Assembly: GCA_026874595.1 (NCBI GenBank)
Contig: CM049316.1
Coordinates: forward strand, 24,203,839 to 24,267,838
Reading direction: 5' to 3'
Source: Sipunculus nudus
Lineage: Eukaryota > Annelida > Sipuncula > Golfingiida > Sipunculidae
Length of the DNA: 64,000 nucleotides
Shown here piece after piece: positions 21,451 through 62,300 of the stretch. Numbering within the stretch: position 1 is the stretch's first letter; each line of letters starts with the position of its first letter. A program made the position numbers and the translations under genes. The notes under the pieces were generated by a model. That model made no database searches. It saw only the letters and a program-made list of their open reading frames with translations, and was not told the DNA's origin.

Positions 21451-21494
<44 letters not shown>

Positions 21495-23735: not shown

Positions 23736-23736
23736 G

Positions 23737-23990
23737 GGCGTCAATATAGGGGGGGGGGGGGGTTACTTTTTGGCACGGGGGATGGTCAATGTAATATTCC
23801 CCCACTATTCGGAAAATAATATCAATATATTGCAAATGAAATATATTAATAAATAGAATTATAGACCTTGGTTCCACTTATGAGTCTTCAATGAAATATT
23901 ATAAACCTGACTTAGAATTTACTTATTCTGGATACCTACCTTATTTTCCAAAACATTACACCTAATTTTAATATAATTGAAATGTGATTC
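23737..23990. repeat. Inverted partial copy of the G-run MITE
   Basis: Starts GGCGTCAATATAGG followed by a G run (23749-23762), then sequence that reads as the reverse complement of the interior of the 14695-15054 element (for example GGTCAATGTAATATTCCCCCACTATTCGG in pieces). The other terminus is not clear. Repeated in copy 2 from about 34742. Confidence 0.5.
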
Positions 23991-25699
23991 AGTATATATA
24001 TATATATTTGAAATTTGTCATACAGACGCTTAAATGTATATATGTGTGTGTGTGTGTGCAATTCATGACCCCACTCTCACCCTGGAAAGCATACTCAAAG
24101 AACGTGTCCAGCCCGTGAAAACTTGCTGAAACTACAACTTTAGCAGAGAATAATGTCCGGAAGCAACACGCAGGACATTCAAAAAGACCAGAGTGATAAT
24201 AATGTGATACTCTCATGTGCAATTTGCATTATGACGTAAAGTTCAATCAGTTTTATCAATATACAATGGTCAAATGTATTTTTATTTTTCCTTTTTAATG
24301 AATTTTATTTTCACTGATAATACTTTAACTATCACCTCATACACTTGACGTCTGGGTATGGTCAAATCTTGATTGTAGAGCGTGTTATTTATTACCTCAG
24401 TAACATTATTTGGTGTATAAGTAAGGTGCTGAATGATAATAAGTGCGCAATTCCACAGCATGCGTATTGTATGTAATACCACACACGTCGATATTAAAAG
24501 TAACGCAATGTCGTCGATAATCCAACGAACTGGTAACTAGAGCACAGCGATTTCATCACTCCCTGCCACCGCCAGCCAAGACACGCTCAAGTGGAAATGA
24601 ACCGAGTATAACTGATGGGCCGCAGTATTTTCAATTACATGTATTTATGAGGTTAGGCCTGCCAAGTAAAAACTCGCTTTACGAAAAGTATATATAGTAA
24701 TACTACTGCTAAACAAAAAAGCGCTTATCAATGTCAAAACAACAATTTTGCATTTCTGTTTATGAAGCATGTATGTATAAATTATGATAAAAAGAAAGGA
24801 CCAGCGCTTTATTCATACGACAAAACCAAGTTGCTTATCAGCTGATTTTTGCAGAATCTAAATATGCCACCACGGCACCAGTCACAACATTGTTAATGTT
24901 ATAACAACAAGAAACTTTGTTGCAAAGCGTCGCGAGCGATATTGAACAAACTCGACCAAGTCAAGAATCGCCATCGGCATCTTGTACTACTCTACATTTT
25001 CTTGCTCTAAATTTTATATTACTGAATAATCTCGTTATTTTGATAATAATCACCAGATTGAGAATATCCTTTAAAATTCCCACAGACTCCATCCTCGATT
25101 TTGTACAGCCTGCCACTTCGTCACTAGAATCAAACCTGTTGCCAATGTTGGCGTGTTGGCTTGCAGCGGCCGCTGTCTGTGTCACCGACTTATGTTTCTA
25201 ACAACGTATACATGGCCCAAAATTACATGAGGCTAATGTCGAAGTTGCCATAAATCTACAGATCTAAATTCACCGCTTTATTCTCCTTTAACGTGTCTCA
25301 GACATTGTCATCTTACGATGATTCCTCCGCATCGCTTGATCAGATCGTCCCGTCGGCCTTGCTGAAACCACGTGGACGCGCCACCGGGGTTCTGGTTGTG
25401 ACGTCACACACGTCCCAAGGGCTGTCTCAACTTTTTCAGGGGGCTCCCTTGACTCTGTTCACATATTCTTTCCTATCACGGGAAGTAGCTCCCCAATGTC
25501 AGTAATTTTTACATCTATTCTATTTGTAGGTTCATACCTTTCATATATGCAAAAACACCCAGAGGGTGGAAGTAGGCCTTTAAGCCTAGAGAAATAAATT
25601 GCTATTTAAAAGATTGTGTAAATGTGACATATTCCCAGATGTATCCATGAATTACATATCATCAAACTTTGCAAGGTATCGCAATTGTAAGCAGACAGT

Positions 25700-26061
25700 G
25701 GCGTCAATTTATCTTCAAGGTGTGGGGATGACTCGCAGGCGTGCGTGGGGTCATCAAAATTGGGAAAACTGTTGCCACATTTCACATATATTACAATTTA
25801 ATTTAAGGTTAAAAAAACAAGGTATTAGGTTTCCAGTATAGGTTAATTAAAAACTAGGTTTAGATGGAATATTTCATAGTAAACTCAGAAATGGAACCAA
25901 CGTCTATAAATCTAATTTTTAAATTTCATTTTTAATGTATAAATATTATTCTCCGAATAGCGGGGGGGGGGGGGGGTGATTACCGTACACTGACCCTCCC
26001 CATCTTTTCCTAAAAAGTGGGGGGGGGGGGATATGTACCCCCAACCCGCTGTATTGACGCC
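25700..26061. mobile_element. G-run MITE, copy 2
   Basis: Duplicate of 14695-15054 with the same GGCGTCAAT/ATTGACGCC ends; it differs only in G-run length. Confidence 0.6.
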
Positions 26062-27778
26062 CGTGTTTATAGCCACAATGCCTATCCTTTAACCTTTTAT
26101 GGCTTGCAAAAGGCTGCGAATCAGGTATGGATCATTTTAATTCCTGACAGAAAACAATACCTTACAGAAGCCCTCACAAATTCAAAGCGTGATTGGTGCA
26201 ATAAATTAAGGCATGGTAACCTGAATTTATGTTAGGATCATGCACATCTTTTTTACTTAAAAAAATTGTAACAGTTGCCTGTGTATCAAACGTGTATATC
26301 TAAAAGAATGACTGCTATTTTTATATTGAATCTTAAAAATTGCATCATTTTGAGGGAATGATGCACATGTGTTAAAAACTTGAATAAGACGGATCGCTTA
26401 TTAAATATTGCTACTTTCAATTTGTTAAAAAAAGAATTTTTAAAATGGCAAAAATCATCATACACGTAGTCGATGCCACTAAATTACTAGGTGACTAAAT
26501 TTTAATCAGGTAAATATATGTTAAAATACCGAGTGATATCAACAGGTTTCCTTTGTTAAGGCTTTTAAACAATCTCATGACTGTTTTTAAAACAAATTGT
26601 TTGGCATATTTGTACTCAAATTTGGTATTGTAACCGGACATGTCGGGACGGTATTTATGGGTCTCATCGGGGTTTGTGGGTCGTTTGTTACACCCTAGTT
26701 GCAGAAAGCGCCATGTTATTATAGAAGGTACATTTCTTATCTTAGGACCGAAATGCTGTATTTTGTTGGTCATTGTACTGTTATAATCGAAGTCTTTCTG
26801 ACATTCGTTACTTACCTTCTTGAGACAGTGTTCTGGTCTCCCTTCTTGTTCTTGGTGTTTATCTCGGTAGTGTTGTAATTAACGTTTGTCTTTATTGTCT
26901 CCTTGACCTCTTCACCTTCGTCCTTGAACTTCAGACGGTAGATCTAGGAAGTTAATTATACAATTAGTAATATACATTGTTGTCATATATTTTATAAATG
27001 TTACGCAAGATGAATCACTAAGAATAAGAGATCCAATATTAAAGGTTAAAATAATAATACAATATTAGTTGTCTTAAATCGTGTCATTGTGATCTTGTAA
27101 TCAACAGCCATATTCAAATAATTTGACAGTTTTCTCCATTTCAGTATCATATGTGAGACTGTCGTATATTTATGTACAAAGGATGTGAATATTGAAAGTT
27201 TTTTTTCGCCATTGTATGAAATGATTGTAAATAAACACAACCGCGGGGAATATAACACAAAACGGGTCGTACAGCACTCATTTTGTTCTAATATTGCATT
27301 TTCTTAAATATCTCACATTAACGAGATTGTCCGAGACTTCCTTGGTCGTCTGCTTCATCAGGAACACTCCGACCAGGAAGCCCGCCACGATTATCCCAAC
27401 CAGAATGACCACCGATAGAGCGATCAGCACATGCTTCCCAGTTACTTTCTTCTCTTCCATGTTGGGCTCCTCCACAGTGAACTGTGAACAATTACATACG
27501 TATATACTATTATCAGACCACAAAATATCTTTTGTATCTCACTGGCGCCACCTGACTGACACTGAATGTTCGAGACCGTTGTGTTACAAAAATGATCATA
27601 TTTTGCAAAATCGCAAATGATAATAATATTTTTTTTATTTTATCTGTCGGATATGTGGCTTTCATTAAATTGCATATGTCAAATTAAGCGATTGCTTATT
27701 GGACAGGAAAACTGTAGATGATACTGAAGCGTGGATGAGGTCTATTGTCAAAGTAGGTTACAACAGCAGAGGTGACGC

Positions 27779-28485
27779 TTACGCTCTTTACACAGCGCTT
27801 TACCTATAGGGCTACTACCTATATCGTAAGGCGCTGTTTGTTATGACCTCGTATCCTGAATTGCAACACCAGAGGGGAGCACTGTATTTTTGTCCAATCA
27901 GATGAGACCTTGTGCTGGAAGACAAAGCCAAGCGAGGAATACACGGAGCCAATCATATTTATTTCTTTTTGAGTGACAACTCACCCCCCCTCCCCAGCGT
28001 AACCGTCTGAACAGGCCACAGGCTCAGAGAGAATTGCCCCTGACGTGGTTTGCTTAGGGCCTTGGGCACATAGGATGCTCGGCCGATGAGCTGTAATTCA
28101 AACGAAACGTAACAACAAAGGCTGCGTGCACACCTTGCTGGCTAGTTTCAGTTGTGCAGACAACAGATACATGGCTACGCTAACACAGTCATAATGTCAT
28201 AATCGAATCGATCGATGATGCGAGAATGCAGAGGGAGCAATTTAAATTCGACCGGAAACTCATCAAGCGGCGCTTGAAGCGCAGCAATGGGCGGAGCTTG
28301 GATGCCTGTCGAGTGTTTGTTTATTGGCATCTGATTGGCTGCTTGTCACATCATACGCATGTTTATTTCAATGGACAACGAACCGCCATCTGGTGTCTAA
28401 ATATATCATAAACGGTCAAAGCTGGCAGCGTGAAAATCAGTTGCTTCTATAGAAGCGCGAGATTTCCGCTGCCTCGTGAGCGTAA
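27779..28485. mobile_element. hAT-type MITE, copy 2
   Basis: Duplicate of 16782-17488, with the same TTACGCTC/GAGCGTAA ends and GGTGACGC flanks. It was carried along by the 11-kb duplication rather than inserted independently. Confidence 0.9.
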
Positions 28486-28935
28486 GGTGACGCTGTGCTA
28501 ATTTATAAGGATTCCCTCGACACATACATAAGTAGCCAGATGTAGCACACAGCGGGTGGAATATCTGGTGATTTCATCTACGTAACTCAACTGAGGCAGC
28601 ATCCCCGGCAAAAAGCCCATCATCTGTATCAATTCAAACTCATGTTTAAAAATCTCATAGACCTCATACAAAATGTAATAAACCTTACATCGTGTTATTT
28701 CAAATGGTATAATTTAAGCAAGAAAGAAGCAAGAAAAAAGTTTCCGGATATTGTGATGTACATTATTATGCGACACTAAAAGGTTGGTTATTGTCATTGT
28801 GTATTTAAAACAATGCTCTTTTTTAACACATTTTAAATTTTTTTAACAATTAATATTTTAAATGAATGAACGTGTTTTAAGTACATGAAGAACAAGTAGA
28901 AAGAAAAGTGTTCCAGTTTCAAAGAATAAAAGCTT

Positions 28936-30397
28936 GATACAATATCCAATATCATAATGAGCTGGTCAAAAAGATTTATTACGCCTTATGGGAAGGTGAT
29001 AGTTTTAAAATCTTTAGTAATGCCGCAGTTAGTGTATCTTCTGTCTGTGCTACCAAATCCAAAAAGAAAATATTTCAAGAAGGTTGAGCAGAAGGTATAT
29101 AAATTCTTGTGGGATAATAAACCAGACAAAATGAAGAGAAGCAATACAGTTTCACCGCGTGAATTAGGGGGATTAGATATGATCCACATAGAGAGCAAGG
29201 CACAAGCACTTAAAATCGCTTGGGTAAAACGGCTGTTAGACAGGGAACAAATAGATGGTTGGCGCCATTTGGTAAATTTTCAATTTAGAAGATGGGCAGA
29301 ATTAATATTTAAAAGCAACCTTAATGTGAAACATGCTCTTGCATTACATTTACCATTAAGTGATTTTTGGAGAGATGTTCTTGTATGTTGGTGCAGGATA
29401 AACTTCAGAAGTCCACAGCTAAACAGTAGTCTCTTGAAGCAGATTATCTGGTATAATTCTGATATACAGGTCGATTCTAAACCCCTTTATAATAAAAAGT
29501 GCATCAACCAGGGAATTCTAACATTTGCGGATATACTTAATCAAAGCGAGGGAATTTATAAGTTTTTATCATATGATGAACTAAACACAAGATATGGAAT
29601 GTATCTAAATTTTCTTGAATATTTACAATTAAGACATTCTATACCAAAGGAATGGATCGTAAAGGTCAATTTTGAAAACAGAATAGAAGTTATGAGTATT
29701 TTAGAGAAGATTAGAGACATGAGGAAAGTATCTAAATTTGCATATAAAATTATAGTAGAGAACGTTTTTACTTTAGCTGAAAACTCAATACAGAAATGGA
29801 ACGAACAATTGACGTTAGAACAGAAATATTTAAAGCCAATAATTACATTTATAGTGTATCAAACTGGTTAAGGTTGCGTTTTTTACAATATAGACTTCTA
29901 CATAGACTTCTGCCCACGAATGGATATCTTTTTAAATTAAAAATTAAGGAAACGATGAAATGTGGTTTTTGTAATAATGAGGTAGAAACTTTAGTTCACT
30001 TATTTTGTAACTGTAATGTGTCTAAGGATATATGATCACAGTTGATAATGTGGTTAAAAGGATTTGAGGTAAAAACTCCAGTCCTAACAAATAATAAGAT
30101 CATACTTAATATGTCTGGGTTAAAGTGGTTTGATACTATTGTCACAGTGTTGATTTCAAAATGGTACATGTATTCATGCAGATATATATTATGCCTTCAA
30201 TTAAGAACCTTCAACAACGGATTAGAATGGTATATGGAATAGAAGAGCAAATTGCACTTAAAAATAACAAAATGGCAGATCATGATAGGACATGGTGTAA
30301 TGTTAAATGTGCTCTGTAACACTGTTATTTAATTTGCTGTACGACTTCAGGACTGATTGATTGTAACTTTTGTTTGGAATAAAGGTATTTAAAAAAA
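28936..30397 (+). mobile_element. L1/Tx1-like LINE, 5'-truncated, copy 2
   Basis: Duplicate of 17939-19400. The open frame 28957-29871, the frameshift after it and the TGA at 30033-30035 are the same as in copy 1, showing that the damage predates the segmental duplication. Confidence 0.88.
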
Positions 30398-31395
30398 GAT
30401 TAAACGAAAAAGAGCAAGCCTTTATAACTCCTATCATTATCATTTACGTAAGGTTACGAAATGGAATGACAGGGTGCTAATCAGAGCTCCGAAAACGTTT
30501 CAGTGCAAAATAACTTAAATTCAATGTTACATTTGCGAGTGTACGATGGCAGTTGCGGACACAGAGTAGGGGATGGGCGGTCCTGACCCTATCTCTCGGC
30601 CACAAGAAAATATAACCAGTATTTTATTCGAGCCTAGCTCAGAATATTAAAGGCACAAATACCGTTATTTGATGCCCCCCCCCCCCCCCGCCTTGCATAT
30701 CCATTCTTTCCTCGCCTTCTTGTCAGTTTTAAACGAACATTTTATCCAAAGATGCTTTATCTCACACGATATTGATTTGTTGTCCCTAAAAATCAGAACT
30801 GGATGATGACTGGATTGAAGCATGACGACTTAGTTTGTAAGCTGTACATAAGATTGATAAGATCTTCTCTTTTATATATAGTCTTATAGACAGTTATTGA
30901 TTTTAACGTCCTATTTGCCGTTTCATGTGCCTTATAGTTGAGCTTTGTGTAAATTTGGCTGAAATACAGTCTGTATTTGGTAATGTTATGTATCCAAATT
31001 CAATAAAATAATATAGTGGTTTGCTTTGTCAATGAATTATCTTGGTTATTTAGGTCAATAGTTGAGTTTTATAGTTTAAGTCAAACTAGTGCTTCATTAA
31101 AGATCCTCAAGGAAAGTATACGACTGTAATATAGTGTGAAGTGTGTCTATCCCTTTAAGAGATTATATATGACAAGATTATTTAAAGCTCTCACTCACAC
31201 ATATTTGTGAAACAGTTACAAATTAGGAAACGAAGAAAATCGAAGTTTGAGAAATGTAAAGAGAAATAAGTTTTAAATGTAACTTGAATACAAACGCAAA
31301 TTTGAAGTAAGAGAACACGTCATTTAGATTACCTGAACTGGCGCTTCTTTTCCGTCAGTCATCGTCTGCTTGGTTTGTGCCGTCACAGGTTTCAT

Positions 31396-32451
31396 GTGAA
31401 TCGGATGTCTCTTCTGATATCTCAGTTGGGTTCTGATGAGCGGGGCACCTCAATTGCCTTTTTAAGCAGTTGATTTTGTGTTGAATATTCAGGGACCATA
31501 GACCTTACAAAGAACTAATTTGCATAACAAATCTTACATAAACGTATCAAAACAGAATATATTAGGCAACTTCCTTGTTGGTTTTTAGCGATATAGCAAC
31601 CTTTATGGCGTTCATGCCTTTGACAGCTACACCACCACTTTAATAAAACAGCATAATTATAATGGATATCAGAAGCAAGTCGCATGAGACAATAGTTGCT
31701 AGTACTCGCATGTGTATACGTGTGTGTTAACAACAGCATGTATTTTTTATTAGGTACTAACGCAAGCCTATATATATCTGCTTACAAATTTGTTGCTAAT
31801 ATTTGTTATAACGGTTTAAACGGTTATCTTCCCAGGGGCGACTTTTTTTTGGGGGGGGGGGAGGTGGCCCTTTCCCCCTTTTCTGCGACCTAAAAACTCA
31901 CTTATTATACTGAGGAACGGGACCAAAAGTTCCCCGATTGCATCATTTAAGCCAATATTCTTAAAACGTTTCTAAACTATATAAGGGGAAAATGTTTTAC
32001 TTCTAACCATCGAGCTTTCCCTCATCAACCTGCGACACCATGCCCCCCCCCCCCAACTGTTCTAAAAGGTCTTTCTTCCCCCACCACCACACACACAAGT
32101 GTTATTGGTGGCATTATTTAAAGAGGTTAAATCCCCAGCTGAGCAGAGGTATACTTCACTATTTAATTCATTTCGCATTATCAGTCTTGCTTGATTGCAG
32201 TAAATACAAAATGACGCCAGATTCTACATTCTGTTTCATGTCGTAATGATGTACCAGGAAGTCAACCGCTGATCACAGCGCCATAATTTAAGCAAATGTC
32301 GCCAACAACATCGCGTGACATAGCGACATATCGCGTGATTTATCATTATTATTTGCCAAAACAGGAATTTCTTGCTTTCTTGCTCATTTGCAATACACAC
32401 AAAAATATGTTGCTGTTTGCCTATCTTTATATGTCTGCCTTTCTCTCATTA

Positions 32452-32499
<48 letters not shown>

Positions 32500-35400
32500 A
32501 ATTATTCCTATTGTAGAAATAGATCTCCTGAATCTATACCGAACAGATGTAATATCTGTAATATTTATACCTTCGCTACAGTTGCCTGTACAACCAGGAG
32601 TGTTACTAATGATTAAGCCTTATATAGTGCTAGTCTGTGAGCAGTTTGTACTAGAGTGCAATATAATGGCAAAAAGTAGCCCATAAGTCAAGAACAGGGT
32701 AATTCTTTACATCTCCTATGAACTCATTTCGTCTTTCATCCAAGATAGTCTAATAAGTTGTGGGTTATGCATCTTAAGCCATCATTGTAATCATTCGTCA
32801 TCTAATAAACAATTTAAATAAAAATATCTTCATGTACATTTACCTTTTCTTATTATTGCACCTTCGCCAGGAAGGTTTTATGTGTTTCCCTTGGTCCGTT
32901 GATTTATCAGTTAACGACGTCTACTTAAAGCAATAGATGGATTTTAATGAAAGTTTGTAGAGGGTATGTGTAACACCTGAGGAATATTGATTCAATGTTT
33001 GAGGTAATACGAAACACCAATTTCACCACTATTGTGATACAGGAAAAAACTTTGTCCACATGGAGACCATTTCATTCACAGCTATTTCTTATTGTTAAGC
33101 AACTGGCCAGGTGGACCCGTGTTAATGAAGCGTAACACTGAAAAGCTTGATTTTAAAGGCACCTGGCAAGGGGTATTAGGTGGTCGTGCGACGACAAATA
33201 CATCTAGTAATCAAATGGTTTTTATTGTGTCTGTCGTATTGATGAAAGCTTTTGTAGTGTATATATATATGCTAATATATACTAAAATTATAAAACCGTA
33301 AGGACAAATGATGGTTGAAAATTAAATTTTGAATATACTAAGGAGTTAAAGAAATTGGGTTATTTTTTATTATTATTGAAAAATGGATCATATTGAAAAT
33401 ATATGTATTGCTTTAAGACAATGAACAGGAGGAATGGTAAAAAAATAGGAAAATGTTTTATGCCTATTTTTGCCACTCATACTGACATTTTTCATGATTC
33501 CATACCATGCACAAAATACAAAATAAATTAACTGAAAGGGATAACAATAAAGAGCAGTATAACACTCACATGCAGAGCACAAGGGCACCCCTAGTGGCGG
33601 ATTTAATGCAAACAACAATTTTTGATGTTTATAGACATTAGATGACTGGCTGTGTCCGAGACTCAAGGTCTTTTCAAATAAACAAATAGCAAAATTATAT
33701 CATTTTGACTAAAGATATATATGTAACCTTGTTGTGGATATAACATTCCCACATACTTAATTCAATGTATATGCAGATATCGTGCTGATAACAGGTGATA
33801 AGTTGCCAGTTTGAAAGCTAGAACTGGTTTTCTTCTTTGAATACAGATGTAAAGGGATTATATTAAATCTGCTATTCATATAAGTCAGGGAAACACCAGA
33901 AATAGGTATGACATAAAGTATCCTTAAAATTTTATTGCGTAATATTGCAAATGGTAGTCCACAGAGAAAGCTGATGTCACATTATACTTTTTGATAAAAG
34001 CTACTGTGTAGTAGCAAACAAAATAAACTTAAAAGAAATATCGCGATAAATTAGTGGGCAAGGGGTTTCGAACCGAGTAAAGATCCTGGATCCTCGGCTG
34101 AAACACCCTCCAACTGGGTAGTGGGTACGAACACAAATTCACAATTGTATCAGAGGCCCTGAAATAAGGAATGCCACTTTAAGCATAGTGCACGGCAGGA
34201 TGGTTAATATTAGATACATGGTTCTAGTTTTGTCAAGGTATGCAAGTTTTATCAAATGATTAAAAGCCCCAGAAAATTCGGCAATAGTTTTCATTATCTG
34301 TGAAACTTTCTTACACTATGATAAACTAGTATGATAATTGAGAAAATATTAACTTATTGAATAAGTTAAAGCTAAATAATATATAGAACGTTCAGCTTTT
34401 ACTGTCATTCTGTAAGTTATTACCACCAGATGGCTATTTTAATCGACCCCTCTGATCCAAACATAACCAGTTTTAATTATGTTTACCAAGAGCGCTGTTT
34501 TCTGATTTTACTAGGGCAAATGCCCACGCATATATCCAACAGCACATTTCAAACCGTCATTGATCGCTGCTTCCTCTAGAAGACGATGATCTCTATATTA
34601 TAAATAAGCAAACGTCAATAGAAATGATGTTAGTATCACCTGAGCTAGAGATTCGAAAAAAAAAATAAAACTTCACTGCAAGGAAACGCCGGCACACTTT
34701 AACAGATCATTTCCTTATACCGCACAGACTGTTCGATAAGGGGCGTCAATATAGGGGGGGGGGGGTTACTTTTTGGCACGGGGGATGGTCAATGTAATAT
34801 TCCCCCACTATTCGGAAAATAATATCAATATATTGCAAATGAAATATATTAATAAATAGAATTATAGACCTTGGTTCCACTTATGAGTCTTCAATGAAAT
34901 ATTATAAACCTGACTTAGAATTTACTTATTCTGGATACCTACCTTATTTTCCAAAACATTACACCTAATTTTAATATAATTGAAATGTGATTCAGTATAT
35001 ATATATATATTTGAAATTTGTCATACAGACGCTTAAATGTATATATGTGTGTGTGTGTGTGCAATTCATGACCCCACTCTCACCCTGGAAAGCATACTCA
35101 AAGAACGTGTCCAGCCCGTGAAAACTTGCTGAAACTACAACTTTAGCAGAGAATAATGTCCGGAAGCAACACGCAGGACATTCAAAAAGACCAGAGTGAT
35201 AATAATGTGATACTCTCATGTGCAATTTGCATTATGACGTAAAGTTCAATCAGTTTTATCAATATACAATGGTCAAATGTATTTTTATTTTTCCTTTTTA
35301 ATGAATTTTATTTTCACTGATAATACTTTAACTATCACCTCATACACTTGACGTCTGGGTATGGTCAAATCTTGATTGTAGAGCGTGTTATTTATTACCT

Positions 35401-35638
35401 CAGTAACATTATTTGGTGTATAAGTAAGGTGCTGAATGATAATAAGTGCGCAATTCCACAGCATGCGTATTGTATGTAATACCACACACGTCGATATTAA
35501 AAGTAACGCAATGTCGTCGATAATCCAACGAACTGGTAACTAGAGCACAGCGATTTCATCACTCCCTGCCACCGCCAGCCAAGACACGCTCAAGTGGAAA
35601 TGAACCGAGTATAACTGATGGGCCGCAGTATTTTCAAT
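31396..35638. other. Upstream flank of the duplicated exon 1b
   Basis: Copy 2 counterpart of 20395-24635. Landmarks are a C run at 32043-32054 and a longer (TA)n tract (about 32455-32497) than in copy 1. No exon was recognised. Confidence 0.5.
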
Positions 35639-42935: not shown

Positions 42936-44870
42936 TAAAAAAAAAAACAGTGGGTCGACAACTTTACCAACCAGGGATGAGGATGTAGCGTGTAGAAACA
43001 TGAAGCGTGTAGGATGTCTCGCTATCGATGGTGTTAGTTTAATATGTAGGACCTGGCCACGATAGACCGGCTACGCAGATTGTCATGTTGAACAACCACG
43101 TACCCGGCCCCTACCTGACCACTTCCTCTGTCCGGCTTTTGGGAGATTTGAAATAAAATACTGAGCAACAAAAGGACAGGAGGCATAGCACGAGCACCTG
43201 GGCGTGCCGGGCCCCGAACACCATCCCATGTGGCATATCACGTCAGTCCGGCCTCATGCCATGCTATCGAAAGCACGTCGAATCAGCTTGTCTTATTTTG
43301 TTGCAGGTTATGCGCGGATTCAGGATTTTTTGCAGGGAGGGGTCAACGGGTGTCATGCATAAAAATGTCTAAAAAATGGTCGTTGATTAAGAGCGGAGGG
43401 GGGTGGGGGGGTGGGGGGTGGGTTTCAACCACCAAAACCCCCCGTCATGCAAAAGATTTATCTAACAAATGTTGGTCGAGAGCCCCTCCGCCCCCCCCCC
43501 CCCCCCGGATCCGCACCAGCAGGTAGGTAAAAGTTTGAATCTTTATTTTAGTATAATAAGCCAGGGCGTACATTAATTGACCTTTAATATTATAGATTAT
43601 TACAGAATACCCATTAAATTACCTAGGAATATATGAATTATTTATATCAATATTCTGGGGATATATTATTAATACTGGATGTTCAATTAATCCAATTAAT
43701 ATACTCATTACTGTTGAAAAGGAAGACCCCAGAACATTGGCCCACGGGCTCTTGTGTTGATTGTGAAAACTCCCAAGAAATTATTATTCCTTTAAACAGG
43801 GAATAAGAGACCTATTCAACAGCCCGCAATACAGTATTAAATTTTTCTGACCTCCGAATTTGTGCTGCACAGTAAAGGAATTCGGGACACACTGAAACCC
43901 GGGCCCAACCTGAGAAACCCGGGCCCGATTAAACACTTGAAAAATGACCCTTACGTAATAGAAATGAATTAATCATGAAGACTGTCTCTATCCCTTTCCA
44001 AGCAAATGATTATTTAGGTGATAGTTTGTATTTTTAGTGCTAAATTATAACTCTTAATAAGGGCCATATTACCAAAATGTTGAGCCGTCAGAAAACCGGG
44101 CCCATTGAAAACGGCATTATCATAGTTGTTTTATGCGATTTATTCACATTTTCTAATCGATTTTAATAGAATGGACAGTACTTTAATCATAGACACTAGA
44201 AAGGTTACTAAAATCCGGTAAATCCCGGAAATTCTGAACTATAACATATATGGTCCGACAGACGGTCAATTTTCCCGCTATACGTCTCCCGGGCCCAAAT
44301 CAAAATGCATTTACACTTGATTACAAATAATATTTGTCACGACCGGTTACGTTAGATTAGACAATCATCTAGCTGTGTACAAGATTTAAAACGTAAAATA
44401 TTGTAACACCCGGGTGTAGCACGTGAGTTCGGGTTAGTTTATTTAAGTCCTAACGGCTCGGGTTGATGTATCTTCACTTGACACTCTAAGTCGCATGCAT
44501 TCACAAATGAAATAAGGCAGCAGTATACATAAATAGGGTTTTAATACAACTCAGTGATAACTTTCAGATGGCAAAAGAAGATGGTGAGGCGCTCTCTCAA
44601 AACGTTGCAGGCGAAGCCGGGGGCGTGGTGTCATTCCGCTACGCACAATACCCTAAATAATAATCCCCGTAAACGTAGATTGGTAGAGTTGTCCATTTAT
44701 ATATACTCCTATGCAGTATAGGTAATCCACAAGTAAATGTGAATATTCCAGTACAGAATCCCAATGGCAAGTTAACACATCCCTTCTAAGGCTGACACGA
44801 GAGCTGACCACCCTGAGAACGGACAGAGCAACACTCCACACTGTTTCTTCGCACGCTCTGCGCGCGCCCT
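42936..44870. other. Intergenic flank left of the satellite element
   Basis: Holds the G/C-rich MITE at 43309-43518 and four CCGGGCCC-containing motifs between 43898 and 44296 in otherwise AT-rich DNA. No gene was recognised. Confidence 0.5.
43309..43518. mobile_element. Small G/C-run MITE, 210 bp
   Basis: Imperfect terminal inverted repeats (left TATGCGCGGATTC, right GGATCCGCACCA) are flanked by a 6-bp duplication GCAGGT at 43303-43308 and 43519-43524. The interior has a G-rich block (43396-43424) and a C run (43491-43506) that could pair with each other. It has no coding capacity. Confidence 0.55.
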
Positions 44871-45149
44871 ATTTGTAGGACGACTGTGAAGTTCGACGGA
44901 CGTCCGACGTCCATTTTTCGTGAAAAAGCTCCGTGAATGCCTGCTATTCCTCCGCTTTTAGCCGGAAACATAATTCCCTGACCAGCCTTCTGTTCACCAC
45001 TTTGCAGTGTATTTCGCTGATCATCGCTGCCCTCAAGGATTCGTCAAGATCATGTATATCAAACGGCGCCAATACACGCTTTCCAACAGACAAATATGAC
45101 TATTAATAATACTAATAATGCGACTATTATTCTTTTTTTTTAAATCTGC

Positions 45150-48100
45150 TTGATATAAAAAAATGTTATAAAATTTTAAATACGCTAAACAACCCTTCAA
45201 GTTTGGTATCAACAGAAAGTTCTTTTCACAGGTAGTCACATTTTTTAAAATAAATTTTAGAGGGCATAGTGAGCGTTTTAGAGCAGTCAGGTACAACTGT
45301 TATTCATTTATTTTAATTTCGAGTGAATTTTAAAGTGTCATACAATTTTCAATACGCTAATCAACCCATCAAGTTTGGTATCAACGGAAAGTACTTTTCA
45401 CTGGTAGTTATATGGTATAAAAATAAGGGTGGCACAAGTGACCGTTTTAGAACAGTCAAATACGACTATTATTAAAATTTTTAATTTAGCGTGAATTTTA
45501 AAGTGTCGTAAAATGTTAGATACGCTAAAGAACCCATCAAGTTTGGTATCAACGGAAAGTACTTTTCAAAGGTATTCACTTGGTATAAATTGTAGAGTGG
45601 CACAAGTGACCGTTTTAGAGCAGTCAAATACGACTATTATTCATTTATTTTTAATTTCGCATGAATTTTCAAGTGTTATATATCTTAAAATACGCTAAAG
45701 AACCCATCAAGTTTGGTATCAACGGAAAGTACTTTTTACTGGTATTCACTTGGTATAAAAATCAGAGTGGCACAAGTGACCGTTTTAGAGCAGTCAAATG
45801 CGACTATTACTCATTTATTTTTAATTTCGCATGAATTTTAAAGTGTTATATATCTGAAAATACGCCAAAGAACCCATCAAGTTTGTTATCAACGGAAAGT
45901 ACTTTTTACTGGTATTCACATGGGATAAATTTTAGAGTGGCACAAGTGACCGTTTTTGAGCAGCCAAATGCGACTATTATTCAATTTTTTTTTAATTTAG
46001 CGTGAATTTTAAAGTGTTTTATATCTTAAAATACGCCAAAGAACCCATCCAGTTTGGTATCAACGGAAAGTACTTTGCACTGGTATTCACATGGTATGAA
46101 TTTTAGAGTGGCGCAAGTGACCGTTTTAGAGCAGTCAAATGCGACTATTATTCAATTTTTTTTAATTTCGCGTGAATTTTAAAGTGTTTTATATCTTTAA
46201 ATACGCTAAAGAACCCATCAAGTTTGGTATCAACGAAAAGTACTTTTCACTGGTAGTCACATGGTATATAAATTAGAGAGGCACAAGTGAGCGTTTTAGA
46301 GCAGGCGGATACGACTAATATTCATTTTTATTTTCAATTTCTCGTTGATTTTAAAGTGTTATATATATATAAATACGCTTAACAACTCATTAGGTTTGGT
46401 ATTAACGGAAAGTACTTTTCACTGGTAGTCACATGGTATAAAAATTAGAGTGGCACAAGTGAGCGTTTTAGAGCAGCCTGATACGACTATTATTCATTTT
46501 TTTTAATTTCCCGTGGATTTAAAGTGTTATATATATTTAAAACGCTAAACAACCCACCAAGTTTGGTACCAACGGAAAGTACTTTTCACTGGAAGTTATA
46601 TGGTATGAATTTTTACAGTGGCACAATTGACCGTTTTAGAGCAGTCAAATGCTACTATTATTCATTTATTTTTAATTTCGCATGAATTTTCAAGTGTTAT
46701 ATATCTTAAAATACGCTAAAGAACCCATCAAGTTTGGTATCAACGGAAAGTACTTTTCACTGGAAGTTATATGGTATGAATTTTACAGTGGCACAAGTGA
46801 CCTTTTTAGAGCAGTCAAATGCTACTATTATTCATTTATTTTTAATTTCGCATGAATTTTAAAGTGTTATATATCTTAAAATACGCCAAAGAACCCATCC
46901 AGTTTGGTATCAACGGAAAGTACTTTTTACTGGTATTCACATGGGATAAATTTTAGTGTGGCACAAGTGACCGTTTTAGAGCAGTCAAATGCGACTATTA
47001 TTCATTTTTTTTTAATTTCGCGTGAATTTTAAAGTGTTTTATATCTTAAAATACGCCAAAGAACCCATCCACTTTGGTATCAACGGAAAGTACTTTGCAC
47101 TGGTATTCACATGGTATGAATTTTACAGTGGCACAAGTGACCGTTTTAGAGCAGTCAAATGCGACTATTATTCATTTTTTTTTAATTTCGCGTGAATTTT
47201 AAAGTGTTTTATATCTTAAAATACGCCAAAGAACCCATCCACTTTGGTATCAACGGAAAGTACTTTGCACTGGTATTCACATGGTATGAATTTTACAGTG
47301 GCACAAGTGACCGTTTTAGAGCAGTCAAATGCGACTATTATTCAATTTTTTTTTTAATTTAGCGTGAATTTTAAAGTGTTTTATATCTTTAAATACGCCA
47401 AAGAACCCATCAAGTTTGGTATCAACGGAAAGTACTTTTTACTGGTATTCACTTGGTATAAATTGTAGAGTGGCACAAGTGACCGTTTTAGAGCAGTCAA
47501 ATGCGACTATTACTCATTTATTTTTAATTTCGCATGAATTTTAAAGTGTTATATATCTTAAAATACGCCAAAGAACCCATCAAGTTTGTTATCAACGGAA
47601 AGTACTTTTTACTGGTATTCACATGGGATAAATTTTAGAGTGGCACAAGTGACCCTTTTAGAGCAGTCAAATGCGACTATTATTCAATTTTTTTTTAATT
47701 TCGCGTGAAATTTAAAGTGTTTTATATCTTAAAATACGCCAAAGAACCCATCCATTTTGGTATCAACGGAAAGTACTTTGCACTGGTATTCACATGGTAT
47801 GAATTTTAGAGTGGCACAAGTGACCGTTTTAGAGCAGTCAATTTTTTTTAATTTCCCGTGGATTTTAAAGTGTTATATATATTTAAATACGCTAAACAAC
47901 CCATCAAGTTTGGTATCAACGGAAAGTACTATGCACTGGTAGTCACATGGTATAAATTGAGTGGCACAAGTGAGCGTTTTTAGAGCAGTCTGATACGACT
48001 ATTATTCATTTTTTTAATTTCTCTTGGATATTAAAGTGTTATATATATTAAAATACGCTAAACAACCCATCAAGTTTGGTATTAACGGAAAGTACTTTTC

Positions 48101-49377
48101 ACTGGTAGTCCCATGGTATAAAAATTAGAGTGGCACAAGTGAGCGTTTTAGAGCAGCCTGATACGACTATTATTCATTTTTTTTTAATTTCGCGTCGATT
48201 TTAAAGTGTTATATATATTTAAATACGCTTAACAACCCATCAAGTTTGGTATCAACGGAAAGTTCTTTTCAATGGTAGTCACATGGTATATAAATTAGAG
48301 TGGCACAAGTGAGCGTTTTAGAGCAGGCGCATACGACTAATATTCATTTTTTTTTTAATTTCCCGTGGATTTTAAAGTGTTATATATATATTTAAAAACG
48401 CTTAACAACTCATCAAGTTTGGTATCAACGGAAAGTACTTTTCACTGGTAATCACATGGTATAAAAATTAGAGTGGCACAAGAGAGCGTTTTATAGCAGT
48501 CAGATACGACTATTATTCATTTTTTTAATTTCTCTTGGATATTAAAGTGTTATATATTTTAAAATACGCTAAACAACCCATCAAGTTTGGTATCAACGGA
48601 AAGTAATTTTCACTGGTAGTCCCATGGTATAAAAATTAGAGTGGCACAAGTGAGCGTTTTAGAGCAGCCTGATACGACTATTATTCATTTTTTTTAATTT
48701 CGCGTTGATTTTAAAGTGTTATATATATTTAAATACGCTTAACAACCCATCAAGTTTGGTATCAACGGAAAGTTCTTTTCACTGGTAGTCACATGGTATA
48801 AAAATTAGAGTGGCACAAGTGAGCGTTTTAGAGCAGGCGCATACGACTAATATTCATTTTTTTTAATTTCCCGTGGATTTTAAAGTGTTATATATATTTA
48901 AAAACGCTTAACAACTCATCAAGTTTGGTATCAACGGAAAGTACTTTTCACTGGTAATCACATGGTATAAAAATTAGAGTGGCACAAAAGAGCGTTTTAT
49001 AGCAGTCAGATACGACTATTATTCATTTTTTTAATTTCTCTTGGATTTAAAAGTGTTATATATCTTTAAATACGCTAAACAACCCATCAAGTTTGGTATC
49101 AACGGAAAGAACTTTTCACTGGTAATCACATGGTATAAAAATCAGAGTGGCACAAGTGAGCGTTTTAGAGCAGGCGGATACGACTAATATTCATTTTTTT
49201 TTTTTCAATTTCTCGTTGATTTTAAAGTGTTATATATATATAAATACGCTTAACAACTCATTAGGTTTGGTATACGACTATTATTCATTTTTTTTTTAAT
49301 TTCGCGTGAATTTTAAAGTGTTATAAATTTTAAAATACGCTAAACAACCCATCAAGTACTTTTCACTGGTAGTCACA
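45150..49377 (+). repeat. 170-bp satellite array, left arm (about 25 monomers)
   Basis: Successive copies of the conserved blocks CATCAAGTTTGGTATCAACG and GAGTGGCACAAGTGA recur every 168-174 bp from about 45203 to 49264. Monomers from about 45400 to 47850 mostly read GACCGTTTT and AAATGCGACTATTATTC; those from about 47900 read GAGCGTTTT and GATACGACTATTATTC. From 48016 to 49215 three monomer types alternate (CTCTTGGAT, CGCGT(C/T)GATT, CCCGTGGATT), giving a higher-order period of about 510 bp. Local open frames here only reflect the repeat. Confidence 0.97.
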
Positions 49378-51130
49378 TGATGGGTTGTTTAGCGTATTTT
49401 ACAATATATAACACTTTAATATCCAAGAGAAATTAAATATGAATAATAGTCGTATCTGACTGCTCTAAAACGGTCACTTGTGCCACTCTAATTCTTATAC
49501 CATATAACTACCAATGAAAAGTACTTTCCGTTGATACCAAACTTGATGGGTTGATTAGCGTATTTAAATATATATAACACTTTAAAATCAACGCGAAATT
49601 GAAAAAAAAAATTGAATATTAGTCGTATCCGCCTGCTCTAAAACGCTCACTTGTGCCACTCTAATTTATATACCATGGGACTACCAGTGCAAAGTACTTT
49701 CCGTTGATACCAAACTGGATGGGTTCTCTAGCGTATTTAAAGATGTATAATACTTTAAAATTCACGCGAAATTAAAAAAAAATGAATAATAGTCGTATTT
49801 GACTGCTCTAAAACGCTCACTTGTGCCACTCTGATTTTTATACCATGTGATTACCAGTGAAAAGTTCTTTCCGTTGATACCAAACTTGATGGGTTGTTTA
49901 GCGTATTTAAAAATTTATAACACTTTAAAATCCAAGGGAAATTTTAAAAAAATGAATAATAGTCGTATCTGACTGCTCTAAAACGCTCACTTGTGCCACC
50001 CTAAAATTCATAACATGTGAATACCAGTGCAAAGTACTTTCCGTTGGTACCAAACTTGATGAGTTGTTAAGCGTATTTAAATATATATAACACTTTAAAA
50101 TCCACGGGAAATTAAAAAAAAAATGAATAATAGTCGTATCAGGCTGCTCTAAAACGCTCACTTGTGCCACTCTAATTTTTATACCATGGGACTACCAGTG
50201 AAAAGTACTTTCGGTTGATACCAAACTTGATGGGTTGTTTAGCGTATTTTAAAATATATAACACTTTAAAATCCAAGAGAAATTAAAAAAATGAATAATA
50301 GTCGTATCTGACTGCTCTAAAACGCTCACTTGTGCCACTCTAATTTTTATACCATGTGACTACCAGTGAAAAGTACTTTCCGTTGATACCAATCTTGATG
50401 AGTTGTTAAGCGTATTTAAATATATATAACACTTTAAAATCAACGCGAAATTGAAAAAAAAATTGAATAATAGTCGTATCCGCCTGCTCTAAAACGCTCA
50501 CTTGTGCCACTCTAATTCATATACCATGTGAATACCAGTGCAAAGTACTTTCCATTGATACAAAACTGGATGGGTTCTTTGGCGTATTTTAAGAAAAAAA
50601 AAACACTTTAAAATTCACGCTAAACTACAAAAAATTGAATAATAGTCGCATTTGACTGCTCTAAAACGGTCACTTGTGCCACTCTGATTTTTATAACAAG
50701 TGAATACCAGTAAAAAGTACTTTCCGTTGATACCAAACTTGATGGGTTCTTTAGCGTATTTAAAGATATAAAACACTTTAAAATTCACGCTAAATTAAAA
50801 AAAATTGAATAATAGTCGCATTTGACTGCTCTTAAACGCTGACTTGTGCCACTCTAAATTTCATACCATGTGACTACCAGTAAAAAGTACTTTCCGTTGA
50901 TACCATACTTAATGGGTTGTTTAGCGTAATTAAAATTTTATAACACTTTAAAATTCATGCTAAATTAAAATAAAATTGAATAAAAGTCGTATTTGACTTC
51001 TCTAAAACGCTCACTTGTGCCACTTTCAAATTCATACCATGTGACAACCTGTGAAAAGTACTTTCCGTTGATACCAAACTTGATGGGCTGTTTAGTTTAT
51101 TTAAAATTTTATAACATTTTTTATATCAAG
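49378..51130 (-). repeat. 170-bp satellite array, right arm (about 10 monomers, inverted)
   Basis: The same monomer in reverse complement (GTTGATACCAAACTTGATGGG and CACTTGTGCCACTCTAA blocks) recurs from about 49530 to 51075. The junction with the left arm is a short palindrome: 49331-49354 pairs with 49378-49401 across a 23-nt spacer. The right arm has fewer than half the monomers of the left, so the two arms have expanded or contracted independently. Confidence 0.96.
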
Positions 51131-51554
51131 CAGATTTAAAAAAAAGAATAATATTCGCATTATTAGTATTATTAATAGTGAAATTTGTCTATTAGAAAGC
51201 GTGTATTGGCACCGTTTGATATACATGATCTTGACGAAGCCTTAGGGGAGGGATGATCAACGAAATACACTGCAAAGCGGTGAACAGAAGGCTGGTCAGG
51301 GAAATATGTTTCCGGCTAAAAGCGGAGGAAGAGCAGGCATTCACGGAGCATTTTCACGAAAAATGGACCTCGGACGTCCGTCGAACTTCACAGTCGTATT
51401 TGTAGGCTAAAGGGGGACGGTGACCGTCCGAGCGGTATCAGCATGGTCAGCCCTGCACGGGCGGTTGTCGCCCAGCGCTACATCGCTGTTACAAGCCAGC
51501 GGACAAACCCCGCTTACGTAAATTAGATACACAGCTAACCCGGGCACCTGCAGT

Positions 51555-51974
51555 GTGACTGACCCCTACGGAACCATGCATTCACTACAATATTATCATA
51601 GGGTATATATTGAAGGTTACACTGTTGTAACGGCATCCTATGAGATTTTGTGTAGGTTTTTGACAGGGGACAGCGCAATGCAAAACTTCAATTCAGGACC
51701 CTGGCAAATATTGCCAAAAGCAACAGGAGAGTCCACCATTACTGTATATAATAATGGCTATTTTTACCATTTTTTGACAGCTTTCTTTTTTTTTTTAATT
51801 AAGGCCGGGTATGGAGAAACGTTGAAGCTGCCAGGAAAATGGTTTAACATCAAATGTTCAGCGCAGTGGTGCTATCTGGAGCTTGAAAAGAAAACAAGTT
51901 ATAACTGGAAAACGTGTAACCCATGCCATGGTTTTCTGGGGGAGGATTATGTAGTAAAATTTTCCAGGAGCTAG
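51555..51974 (+). CDS. Unassigned open frame, 139 codons
   Basis: I do not recognise it. The translation starts MTDPYGTMHSLQYYHRVY, has a run of phenylalanines encoded by a T tract near 51785-51797, and a C-terminal half with four cysteines (KCSAQWCYLELE and WKTCNPCHGF). No intron or promoter signal is evident. It lies about 150 bp right of the satellite element. It may be a chance frame or a fragment of an older transposon protein. Confidence 0.2.
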   Translation: MTDPYGTMHSLQYYHRVYIEGYTVVTASYEILCRFLTGDSAMQNFNSGPWQILPKATGESTITVYNNGYFYHFLTAFFFFLIKAGYGETLKLPGKWFNIKCSAQWCYLELEKKTSYNWKTCNPCHGFLGEDYVVKFSRS

Positions 51975-53844
51975 GTAAATATGGAAAAAAAATGTGCCGG
52001 AAATTTGCTATATATATTCCTAGATGGACATATTGTGAAAAATAACAAATAGGGCTGCAGGATCAGTCAGTCAGGCCATCAGAGGGCTTCGAGCGACGAA
52101 GGTCCGACTTCCGGTGAAGCACACATGAACTGCAGACTGAACATCCATTGAGGCATACTTAAATTTGCATGCTAAAAATTCCGTGCGTTAAACGTTACTA
52201 TCAACAAAGAGGAGGCATTTCGACCAAGCTTTGCCATCAAGGGTTGAACCATGCCAACACCTTGACCTTTTGCCGGACACCGGTCGCACAAGTGTCATAC
52301 TCAAACGTTTCTGGTTACGAAGGGGGGGGGGGGGGGGGGGGGGGGGTTGCAGTGATTATTTATTTATAATTGTATTAAAAGTATGAAGAGTTACAATATT
52401 AGGAAATATATCCGTACAGGTTATGTAAAATTTAGGACTCTAAGCCAATAAAGCTAAAGTGCAATTATTTTAGGTGCATATTTTGGATATATTTTAATGC
52501 AATTGTTTGCATTTATTCGGTCCATATTACTAGGTTCATTCGTGGATACGTGACTTTACATTTGTGAATATTCCTTGATGACGTTCCTAAAGCCGGGTCA
52601 CGCTCTGGATATACACAAAAATCTTATCGATTCTTCATTAGCCCCATTCTAAATGAACTTATATATACTTCCTGGCGGAAGCTACAAAGCTCCCTATTCA
52701 TAGAATACGAGAGTATCGCGTTATCATTCCACTTAAGGGCAGGTTACGAAACACTCGATCCATCGTTGGCCATGAAACGTTTATCGCCGAAGGCGGGTGA
52801 ACGGAGTTGGGAAGGGGGCTGGGGGGTGTTACCTACTTGAGGCTGATAAGCCATTGGAAGCAAAGTAGCATGAAGACAAGATGATTACACTACAAGTAAA
52901 GCATAAACCTTTGTTTTAACGTCCTCGGCGAAAAATCAGTGGTAACAAACATTGCCACCTCTTGAATGTGCAACATACTAAAATGCATTAATGAATTTTA
53001 TAATTTAAATAAATTTATATAATATGACTCTTACATCTCCCGTATATTGGCCAAATATATAAATGTACCGTATATGACCGAATATTAAGCGCCTATGAAT
53101 TGGTAATCGTAGCCATCGTGACTTTTTGTTTCTCTCCGTAAAACTGTCCACTGTTAAGAATTCAAAGTCGCCATTCGCTTTAGTTTTAAATGCCCCTATA
53201 AGCAGTATATTCTTGTGCAAATATATCTCATCGGTGACGTCATCAGAGGTCAGTTTGAATATGGACGACTGGGCACATTTATTCAATGTCTGACAGATGA
53301 TCTTGCTGAAATGATCTTGCCGGAATAACTCAACAAGGCTTACAGGCACATTCACGATTGATTGACTAACCATGCATCTCATGAAGGGCTAGGACAAGTT
53401 GGACCATAAATGATTAAGGTCACACATTCATTACTGTTACTAATGTTACACTCATCAGTCCTTTCAGAAATGTCTCTCAGTTTCCAACCAGTATTCAAAA
53501 CTGCAGCTACCCCAATGACAGACACAAACCAGATATGTCCCACAGATCAAGTTATCATTAAAAATAAAAACAAATACCAAAGTTTGTAAGGCAACCATTT
53601 ATTGTAACTGAAATTTATTATGGTAATGTAACAAGGTCACTCGCCCTGAAAAAAAAAACCCATAAAAACTGTGTATTCTGTGTATTTTCTGTGTAAGTCT
53701 AACAGATATAAAAGTAAAATTGATACGTTCCAGTATCGTTAATCTTACATTTATATTTGTCCGAACGAATAATCATCATACAATATGTATGGATATGAAA
53801 TATAAGCGAAACACAGTGAGAATGACCTGAACCTTTGCAAGTTG

Positions 53845-57463: not shown

Positions 57464-59349
57464 TACGCCCCTGTCCTATCCTAAACATTGGCTGTTTTTC
57501 GTGTCAGGGAAGAAAAATAAATGTTCTTCCTCTGAAAAGATCCACAAATTTCAGCGCTTGGTTTTTTAGGCGTCTCGATTATTATCAGTCACGTTCAAAA
57601 TATTCAGTCATGTAATATTTCATTGGAAATTCGCTAAATGTTCGCAGAGCTGGCGGATCAAATGCTTGAAAAGACATTATTCAGTTTTCCGCAAGTCATG
57701 ATCTCGCATGGTATTACGCATACCGTACTATGATTGCCCTATTGTTCGCGATGGGGTTTCAATTTCTCGATACTGGCAAAGGGGATTTAAACCCATCGTC
57801 AAAAGAGAAATTGATATTAAGCATAAATATTAATATAGTTTGTATGTTAAAAGATTGCTATTATAAATCGTTCGATGTTCCCTTGTGTCCCCGTTCAATT
57901 ATTAAGATTTTATGCACATGGTATTTGATATAATTAATTCATATCATTATAGAAAATATAATTAATTCATATCATTATGGTTTTCTATAAGTAGGTGTTT
58001 AGTTTTATTGGATCGCTGAATGGAACTTTCGCTAATTACTGAAAAGTGGAAATCGCTAATATTTAACCCAGCGAATATGAAGCTAACCAAAGAAGTCGAT
58101 TGAAATGCCTTTGCAGGAAAATATTTTTTCGCTTATCATATATCAAGTATACCCAATAAACCTAGCTTTTAAAGGAAAGGTTCTCAATCTGGGTGGTTAT
58201 GGTCATTATGTGTGCATCTTTACAGTACACAAATTGAATTTTTTTTGTTTTTAAATTCATTTAAAAGGATAGGTCCATGGCCTGTTGGTGGCACTGTGTT
58301 GTATGGATGAAGGTATCCATATTATAAGAATGATATGTTATTATTAAGCCTTCACGATTCAGGATTTCAGGTTTGATATGCACGGGGTTAGCAAAAATCT
58401 AGAAGTCATAACTTGTCGATAAGACATTCTAACGAAATAACACCATTATGCCATTGAGGCACCGGCGTGGTTCGAACCAGGAACCTTCCGCTTCGAAGTC
58501 CAACGCCGTAACCACTAGGCTCCGTCCTACCCCTCAATTTGCTGGGTTGTAGAGGCTTTATGGTTCTTATCCTACATCACGCATCAAGAAAACCGTACAC
58601 ATGGTATTATAATTATGATTCAATGAACAGGAAATCTTATTTTTTATTAATTATACCAGATATATAGTTTGGTGAGAATCCGCAAAAGTACAAATTTCGC
58701 TAATATGTTTCTTAATATATGGGCAACTCACAAGGTGCGGGAGTGGTGTCCTCCTCATCTTCAGGGACACCTTCGTCGTTGTCCGGGTACAACCAGTAGA
58801 TGGACAGGCCCCGACACAGGTCGTTTACACGCTGTCCCAGGAAACCAGTGTCCTTGATTGGTTCTTCTGACGGACGAAGTGTCGCCTGGTCGTCCGGCTC
58901 GGTCGGAGTCTCTTCATCATCTTTAGCCTGTGACAAGTGACAAGTAGCAATAGTTATCCTGATATAATTACCTTCTTTACCTGTGCGTTATTCAACCAAA
59001 ATCTTTACTGCTACGGGTCCAATCACTGCCATACACTAGTATTCTATCCATAGATTGATCCGCGCCTTGGCACTAACCACGGCGTGTCTTCGTTTCGTAT
59101 TCCATGCCCTGAAACACTGACCGATAACTCGCATACAAAACCTTTTTTGTGTTCCAAATTTTTGTTCAGTTATTTAATTTAATCTCTCTTATATTGCTAT
59201 TAATTGGTTTACATTTATAAGCTTCCTAACCGTTCAAGACCGATGTTACGTTAGCAGTATTATTTTTTTTAATAACATAAAATAATATATATATATATAT
59301 ATATATATTGAATTTATATTATTTTGAGATATTTAAGGCAAAGAACATA

Positions 59350-59395
<46 letters not shown>

Positions 59396-62300
59396 AATTT
59401 ATATTATTTTGAGATATTTAAGGAAAAGAACATACTCTGGCTAATGAAATAAATGTAATAGAGACAATTTTATATTGGACTGCTTCATTTTTTATTTTGT
59501 CGCTATGTTAATCATTGGCCACCATGTATTTAAATATGTTTAACTTTGTTGCAAAATGAGCTTCATATAAAATTCTGGTTAAAGGAAGTAATTGCGCAGT
59601 GTGGTCTTCAGGTGATGTATTGAAAGTTTTCCATTAAAAAAACATAATTTGCATTAAATGTCTTCTTAATATTTCATTTGAATACTTGAAATACTCAATT
59701 AAGGCCTATTTGCAAAGACACGGGAACTGTGTTATTGTTATTCTGTAATGGTTGTATATTGTGAATCCTTTATGAAATTGTTGCATCATAGAAATGTAAT
59801 GTTGGACATGCTAGAGGTATATAATTCCTTAAAACATGTTTTCGTGAATATTTGAAACATGTGAAAGCTGAAGCATGCTAAGAAATATGAAACACGTTTT
59901 AAAACAAATGACTCGGGGTCATGATGATCAGCTGATATCTGCAGTGAGAAATTAAACCAATTTTGATTGCTGTCATTTTGGAATTTTTGGAATTTCGTCT
60001 GTGGTAGTTGTGAAGGATTAATTGAATGGAATATCTTCAGAATTTCCATGGTGAGTAGAATTTTGTTGATTTCCGACCCAAAACACAATTATGAGTCTGA
60101 TATTTAAGTGCTAGAGGTATGAATTTCAAGAATAAATCAGATACCAAGTCTGTATTTTGCAATGTTTCCGTAGCAACTGTGAAGAACTCGTTAACCAGAT
60201 TTTCTTCTGAAAAATATGTAGATTGCAACACCAGTCTTGCACAGCTGTCCATGGTCAATAAGCTTACCGAATTTCAGAAAGATCAATACAATCTCTATTG
60301 AGAATTATATCTAAAGTGTATACAACATACATCAATAGCCAAATATCTTAAATTTCACAATTATGTCCGAGAGATTTCTTAAATACGCAGACGCAGAGGA
60401 CCCACGGACTCCAGCCCACTAAGTAAACCTTATCAGAAAATGATTTAACTTGTTATAATATGGTGATCATTATTTTTATATAGGCATTTTATATGCTATA
60501 AATGTTATAAATGTTTTATTTAGTTTATATACCCCGTCAACCCTACTTTGGTATTGCTATTAGTCATGCACATCACAGGGTCATGCAAACCTGATAGTTG
60601 GGGGCCGATCTGTCTTGGTGGAACTATATTATTGACATTTCCCCAAAATACTTGAACGTCTGTCCTCTCACATAACCAAACGTTCATCTAATATGGATGC
60701 GTCTACTAAAATGTATTTAACGGTATGATAACTGTGTTTGATGACATCTTTATGAACATTATGATACGTGAAATTATGGATAAAGAAGTCATATGACATA
60801 CCGGGTGTGTCTTCATGTATCGCTCCAGGGTTGCCGGGTCGACACTGGAGGTTCTGTTCATTGGTGACACGTAGCAGGCTCCCTCACCCTCAGCCGGACG
60901 ACTCACGTACAGGGTGATACCCTTAAAAGAAAGAAATACGTATTTCCACTAAATTTACTTTAAAAAATAAATTAAATTAATTCCTAGTATAAATTTTGAA
61001 AATTTCCTTGATACCGTTCCTGGAAAAAAATCGCATTTCTTTCTATTTTATACAATTAAATGATCATTTTAGTCGTTAACACATGTTCCCAGATGGCATG
61101 CATTTCATCACATTTAACTCGGGTAAATATATTTCCAAAATCGAGTGATATCAACAGTTGTCTTGGCGACAGGCCTCAAAGATTGTAATAACTGTTAATT
61201 TCAAAATTTTAAAAAAAATGTGAAGTTGTAAACACGACGATAACTCCATTTTCATCATCATGGTCACCAAGATCCAAAGTTTAGTGCAATGTTTAGTCCA
61301 GTTTAGTTTAATTCCCTTTTAGATAAAAAAAAAACTAAGGAAGTTGTTTTAAATTTAAATGCGCAACAATTGCGTTCATTCTATAAATGTGTCTCCAACA
61401 TTTCTGAAAAATTGTTTGGCATAATTTTACTCAAATCTTTTATGATAATAGAGAATGTATGGATAGTTTACATCTATCTCATCAGGTACTTCGGATTGTT
61501 CATAACACCATGATTGCAGAGAAGGCAACGATATTTAAAAAAAGTTTTTTATTTTGAGGACCGAAAATACAAAAAGCCAACTAATCGTCAAATATATATT
61601 ATTTATTCCTTACTAACCTGTCTTTGAACACGATGGTCGCCTTTCTTGCTTTCGGTGTCTGATGTTCATTACAAACCTTTTTGCTGTCACTGATGACTTC
61701 TATTAGCCTGTCTAGTTGTTGGTATTACTTTCGTTTTAGTTAAATTTAAAGGTGCCCATTTGAAAACGAATTTATGTGATTTCTGGCTTCCTCTGTGTTT
61801 ATATCAATGATCTAAAGGTAATTCTGGTAATGGAAAGTTCTTATTATGCCTGCGATAAGGATGTATGAACTACAAATTTATACATCCTTAACGGATAAGC
61901 CAACAACGTGTTTTTAAACCCAGCAATGTTGACGAACGGGAAAATCATATAACCTAAGATGGTAGGTTGCATATATGCCCAGGTTGAAAGGTCACTTTTC
62001 GTAAACGCCATTGGCAAAGCTCTTGCTTATCTGTATTGCCACCAGATGCCCTTGTTGATTTTGTTTTGATTATTTTGGCTGTGTGCGGTGATATCAACGT
62101 TTTTTGGATTATTTTAATGAAAGCTCCAAGGGATTACCTTAGGTTTATAAAGGCTAGATGGGTGATTTGGCCCCTTTTTTGTAAACCGTCTTGCTTCAAG
62201 TTTTGACCTGTGTATTGTTTAATATTAATCACTTACCTTTTTGAAGTCGTTGAAGACTGTATTCTTGTCGCCTTTTTTGTCCTCGGTGTTGATCTCAGTG

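Follow-up and report, generated by a model that had tools for sequence, protein, structure and literature searches.

The locus raises the question of how a block of ~6.5 kb, in which satellite repeats run first in one direction and then in the other, came to lie in the 64,000-nucleotide stretch of DNA analyzed here (the window). The original prediction was a single insertion event and not the growth of a satellite in place, and the proposed element of ~6.5 kb was bounded by an exact 9-bp duplication. These boundaries were borne out. The element spans 44880-51397 (6,518 bp), and the sequence ATTTGTAGG occurs exactly at 44871-44879 and, on the same (plus) strand, at 51398-51406, flush with the two element ends. 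The length of 9 bp holds, but a 10-bp reading (TATTTGTAGG, starting at 44870 on the left) is also possible owing to a T that lies upstream of both copies. The ATTTGTAGG 9-mer was found four times in the window vs 0.97 times expected from shuffles; the other two occurrences, at 14517 and 25522, are located one in each copy of an 11-kb duplication. Based on base composition, the probability of an equal 9-mer at two fixed positions is ~7e-6, and 77 of 2,000,000 random pairs of positions in the window (~4e-5) had equal 9-mers.

An exact terminal complement of 12 bp had also been proposed. The complementarity of the two ends is indeed exact, but it is longer, being perfect over 28 bp. When up to 3 mismatches were allowed, the 16-bp tip was detected in the window at the two ends only, and both occurrences were exact. 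These tips are the outer parts of a non-satellite flank domain of ~237 bp per end (left, 44880-45116, plus strand; right, 51162-51397, minus strand), in which 222 of 236 aligned positions are identical between the arms, with one additional 1-bp gap. If the flank domain is joined with the outermost satellite unit shared by both arms, the clearly homologous end reaches ~320 bp. The longer terminal inverted repeat, predicted at ~260 bp, is present. No further copy of the flank domain was found in the window by either blastn or nhmmer. Its G+C content is 45%, whereas that of the array is 32%. On neither strand were the outer 60 bp more similar to the satellite monomer than expected from shuffles (219/500 and 272/500 shuffles reached the score). 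The inner end of the domain (45087-45105) matched the monomer at 17 of 19 positions, which none of 300 shuffles equaled on that strand; on the opposite strand, 267 of 300 shuffles reached the score. This short match may mark an irregular beginning of the array, or it may be the seed or source from which the repeat arose.

Between the flank domains, the left arm starts with a partial satellite unit (45117-45200, plus strand) that is homologous to the outermost partial unit of the right arm (51080-51157, minus strand). The forward array (45201-49353, plus strand) contains 24 units of ~170 bp, followed by truncated units beside the centre, and the reverse array (49379-51079, minus strand) contains 10 units of ~170 bp, the innermost of which is incomplete. 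They meet at a central inverted junction, a 25-nt spacer (49354-49378) with inner arms CGCTAAACAACCCATC and GATGGGTTGTTTAGCG, for which a hairpin is predicted. TRF found 24.5 copies of a 170-bp repeat at 45117-49273 and 10.5 copies at 49378-51157. The unit numbers were obtained with a 34-base anchor, for which at least 22 matching bases were required. It gave 27 forward and 11 reverse matches in the element, and after exclusion of 3 forward and 1 reverse match within the opposite array as chance, 24 and 10 units were left (~34 in total), in agreement with the ~25 monomers one way and ~10 the other way that had been predicted. The rest of the window contained two forward and no reverse anchor matches, none of them scoring above 22. 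A second copy of the monomer was not found elsewhere in the window, where blastn detected only 13- and 18-bp matches at an E-value of 0.74. The Rfam search of 44000-52500 (E-values up to 1) returned no ribozyme family; its sole match, located at the central hairpin, was to a microRNA family and was judged to be due to chance (E-value 0.0048; 31.4 bits vs a gathering score of 79).

It had been predicted that there is no gene inside, and the longest stop-free frame within the element is indeed only 88 codons. None of the 16 window frames of at least 120 codons is located in the element, and the 8 of these frames that were compared with Pfam gave two matches, both to reverse transcriptase and none to a transposase. 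A reverse-transcriptase frame of a non-LTR retrotransposon is located at 423-2099, with RVT_1 on both parts and an in-frame stop between them. For one reverse-transcriptase frame, 63 relatives were found (best identity 63%), including one from an assembly of Candidatus Thiodiazotropha (48%), one from carp (55%, covering 29% of the query) and one from a gall wasp (31%); a second window frame had five relatives. Thiodiazotropha lives in lucinid clams, and it is possible that this record contains contaminating host DNA and that the window comes from a marine bivalve; an invertebrate host of this sort is, however, no more than a weak guess. The window also has two dispersed repeat pairs, 10486-10693 and 58725-58932 (92% identity) and 11270-11492 and 60793-61013 (87%).

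To understand how the two arms are related, we compared their satellite units. The outermost units (45117-45200 and 51080-51157) are 93.6% identical to each other when 6 gap positions are set aside, whereas neither is more than 88% identical to any of 32 other units. Thus, the satellite forms part of the terminal inverted repeat, and the flank domain, the junction and the first unit are common to both arms. Beyond the outermost unit, the units of the two arms did not correspond significantly in their order: the best three-unit match was equaled in 154 of 2000 trials with shuffled right-arm units, antiparallel runs of units were nearly equal to the best runs (94.7 vs 95.5%), and pairs of units at the same position counted from the ends had a mean identity of 85.7% vs 87.7% for all pairs. 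In the left array, units F18-F20 and F21-F23 are 98, 99 and 97% identical, a three-unit duplication that, judged by its sequence, is recent. The outermost full units showed the lowest mean identity to other units (F01, 79.3%; F02, 84.0%; R01, 84.9%), whereas the remaining 30 of the 33 compared units ranged from 85.2 to 90.3%. These observations fit growth and turnover of the array within each arm.

These data bear on an alternative origin, in which a transposon with short ends captured an existing genomic satellite and an inversion within the array followed. Both the 170-bp unit and the length of the arrays are typical of satellites, and the arms lack a position-by-position register. However, an inversion in a captured array does not account for a flank domain, a junction and a degenerate first unit common to both arms unless the whole arm was copied, and we consider this scenario improbable.

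Another possibility is that the inverted structure is an assembly artefact, derived from a palindromic (missed-adapter) read or from a misjoined satellite locus. The 11-kb tandem duplication in the same window, with only two mismatches between its copies, may itself be an assembly error. However, the arms differ at 14 of 236 flank-domain positions, in the number of units and in unit sequence, the best pairs across arms being 97% alike. A palindromic read is unlikely because the arms have diverged, whereas such a read would give near-identical arms. In addition, the DNA flanking the element differs between the two sides, yet the duplication directly abuts the element at each end. Taken together, an artefact appears highly improbable. 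As to the 11-kb duplication, its copies (13630-24634 and 24635-35638) are arranged head to tail and are 99.7% identical, with 9 gap openings in addition to the mismatches; it is either very recent or a duplication made in assembly.

The element has long terminal inverted repeats that hold internal tandem repeats, together with a flush target-site duplication, and both are features of Foldback elements. Considering all of these observations, we regard it as very probable that this is a non-autonomous Foldback-type DNA transposon that was inserted as a unit by an outside transposase and whose arms derive from one copied ancestor. Insertion in a single event by a cut-and-paste transposase, as opposed to satellite growth in place, is also the best reading of the flush duplication, the perfect 28-bp tips and the shared flank domain. 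In the proposed mechanism, one ancestral arm, consisting of the flank domain and the first satellite unit, would have been copied in inverted orientation to give both arms. The arrays would then have expanded and turned over inside each arm through unequal exchange or slippage, a process that could yield 24 units in one arm and 10 in the other, as well as local duplications of recent date and degraded units at the outer ends. A transposase made elsewhere would have recognized the flank domains and placed the whole element at this site in one step, with a duplication of 9 (or 10) bp as the result. By analogy with Galileo of the P superfamily, the repeats may hold secondary transposase-binding sites; in Galileo, sites in the tandem repeats of its long inverted repeats bind the DNA-binding domain of the transposase (PMC3688188).

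The original prediction named a Mutator-like or Merlin-like transposase acting in trans. The Mutator part of this proposal is supported by the length of the duplication, whereas the Merlin part is not supported by the ends. Mutator duplications are 8-11 bp long (PMC6446971), a range that includes both the 9-bp and the 10-bp reading, and Merlin ends start with 5'-GG (PMC8101967), whereas the ends of the element start with ACGACT. Because of the duplication length and the end sequence, we favor Mutator over Merlin, and the transposase acting in trans was probably of the Mutator type. A mollusc survey detected Mutator-like elements in every genome analyzed (PMC10294476), an observation that is supportive only if the host is a mollusc. 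No exact matches to the tip pattern or the monomer core were found in viral contigs and prokaryotic genome contigs, as expected of an animal element.

It is also conceivable, although we think it rather unlikely, that an element of identical anatomy was moved by a Merlin, P-type or another non-Mutator transposase. Foldback anatomy is also found in the P superfamily (Galileo), but duplications made by P-type elements are 7-8 bp long. Merlin elements are compatible in several respects, as they make duplications of 8-9 bp, can have long inverted repeats (24-462 bp) and may also contain tandem repeats, the unit being 163 bp in one family (PMC8101967). In the transposase search of the mollusc survey, each superfamily that was looked for, Merlin included, was represented in bivalves by one or more elements (PMC10294476). 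However, that search yielded 63 Merlin elements in total, and in the repeat libraries of the same survey Merlin was almost confined to cephalopods (PMC10294476).

The element is a clean and complete case, flanked by a duplication, of a transposon with an interior of satellite-length DNA almost throughout. We tentatively suggest that it may represent a Foldback-type family whose arms have turned wholly into a satellite array and which has no middle domain, such that a complete inverted satellite locus of 6 kb is set down with every jump. If this is true, other arrays of this 170-bp unit in the genome would have descended from insertions of this kind. The exact ends and the unit sequence allow a direct question to be asked, namely whether transposition seeded satellites in this genome.

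Foldback transposons with satellite repeats have been described before, so the element is a clear new case of a known kind. The original prediction recognized no family; the structural class can now be assigned, i.e., Foldback anatomy with Tetris as a close precedent. Three further papers (PMC5139131, PMC11136912 and PMC9659126) did not alter this assignment. Drosophila FB elements have long inverted repeats of tandem units, but these repeat units are much shorter than those described here. Helentrons, in turn, are rolling-circle elements without target-site duplications or long inverted repeats. Nevertheless, satellite repeats carried by Helentrons in the Pacific oyster (PMC7492417) are likewise a case of a mobile element with a satellite-like array. 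A satellitome table for the Pacific oyster contains two satellites, one of them with a 182-bp unit, with the label DNA/MuDR, although the heading of the column that holds this label is uncertain (PMC8268682). Among the literature matches listed, which covered few subscription papers, no title named a mollusc Foldback element with satellite arms. Rehavkus shares 9-bp duplications with the element, and a Rehavkus minisatellite adjoins its 3' inverted repeat (PMC6446971).

Tm1 of root-knot nematodes (Meloidogyne) is similar in that its inverted repeats are composite, resemble those of Foldback elements and contain tandem motifs (PMC3169594). The number of these motifs varies, non-autonomous copies exist, and duplications of 8-10 bp, mostly 9 bp, were described for 45 of 53 elements (PMC3169594). 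One group of Tm1 has a Phantom-like (Mutator) transposase (PMC3169594). Unlike the element, Tm1 has a motif of ~14 bp, asymmetric 7-bp end motifs and a known transposase-coding copy (PMC3169594).

Judged by its published description, the closest precedent in layout is Tetris of Drosophila virilis (PMC4079207). Like the element, Tetris is non-autonomous and has an outer flank domain followed by a variable number of tandem repeats, which in Tetris are ~220 bp long, and its duplications of 8-10 bp are close to the 9 or 10 bp observed here (PMC4079207). Its authors assigned Tetris to Mutator on the basis of how long its duplications are and of how Foldback elements had been viewed before, and they reported that its repeats also occur as longer satellite-like arrays (PMC4079207). 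The flank domain and the repeat of Tetris have a 37-bp stretch in common (PMC4079207), whereas here the corresponding match, at the inner end of the flank domain, amounts to 17 of 19 positions. The unit is shorter here (170 bp) and the arms are longer (~4.5 and 2.0 kb vs up to 1.7 kb in Tetris; PMC4079207). Finally, the arrays of Tetris are separated by an inner and a middle domain (PMC4079207), whereas those of the element meet at the 25-nt spacer. Thus, what the element adds to the known systems is a pair of arms that are satellite almost throughout, with no middle domain.
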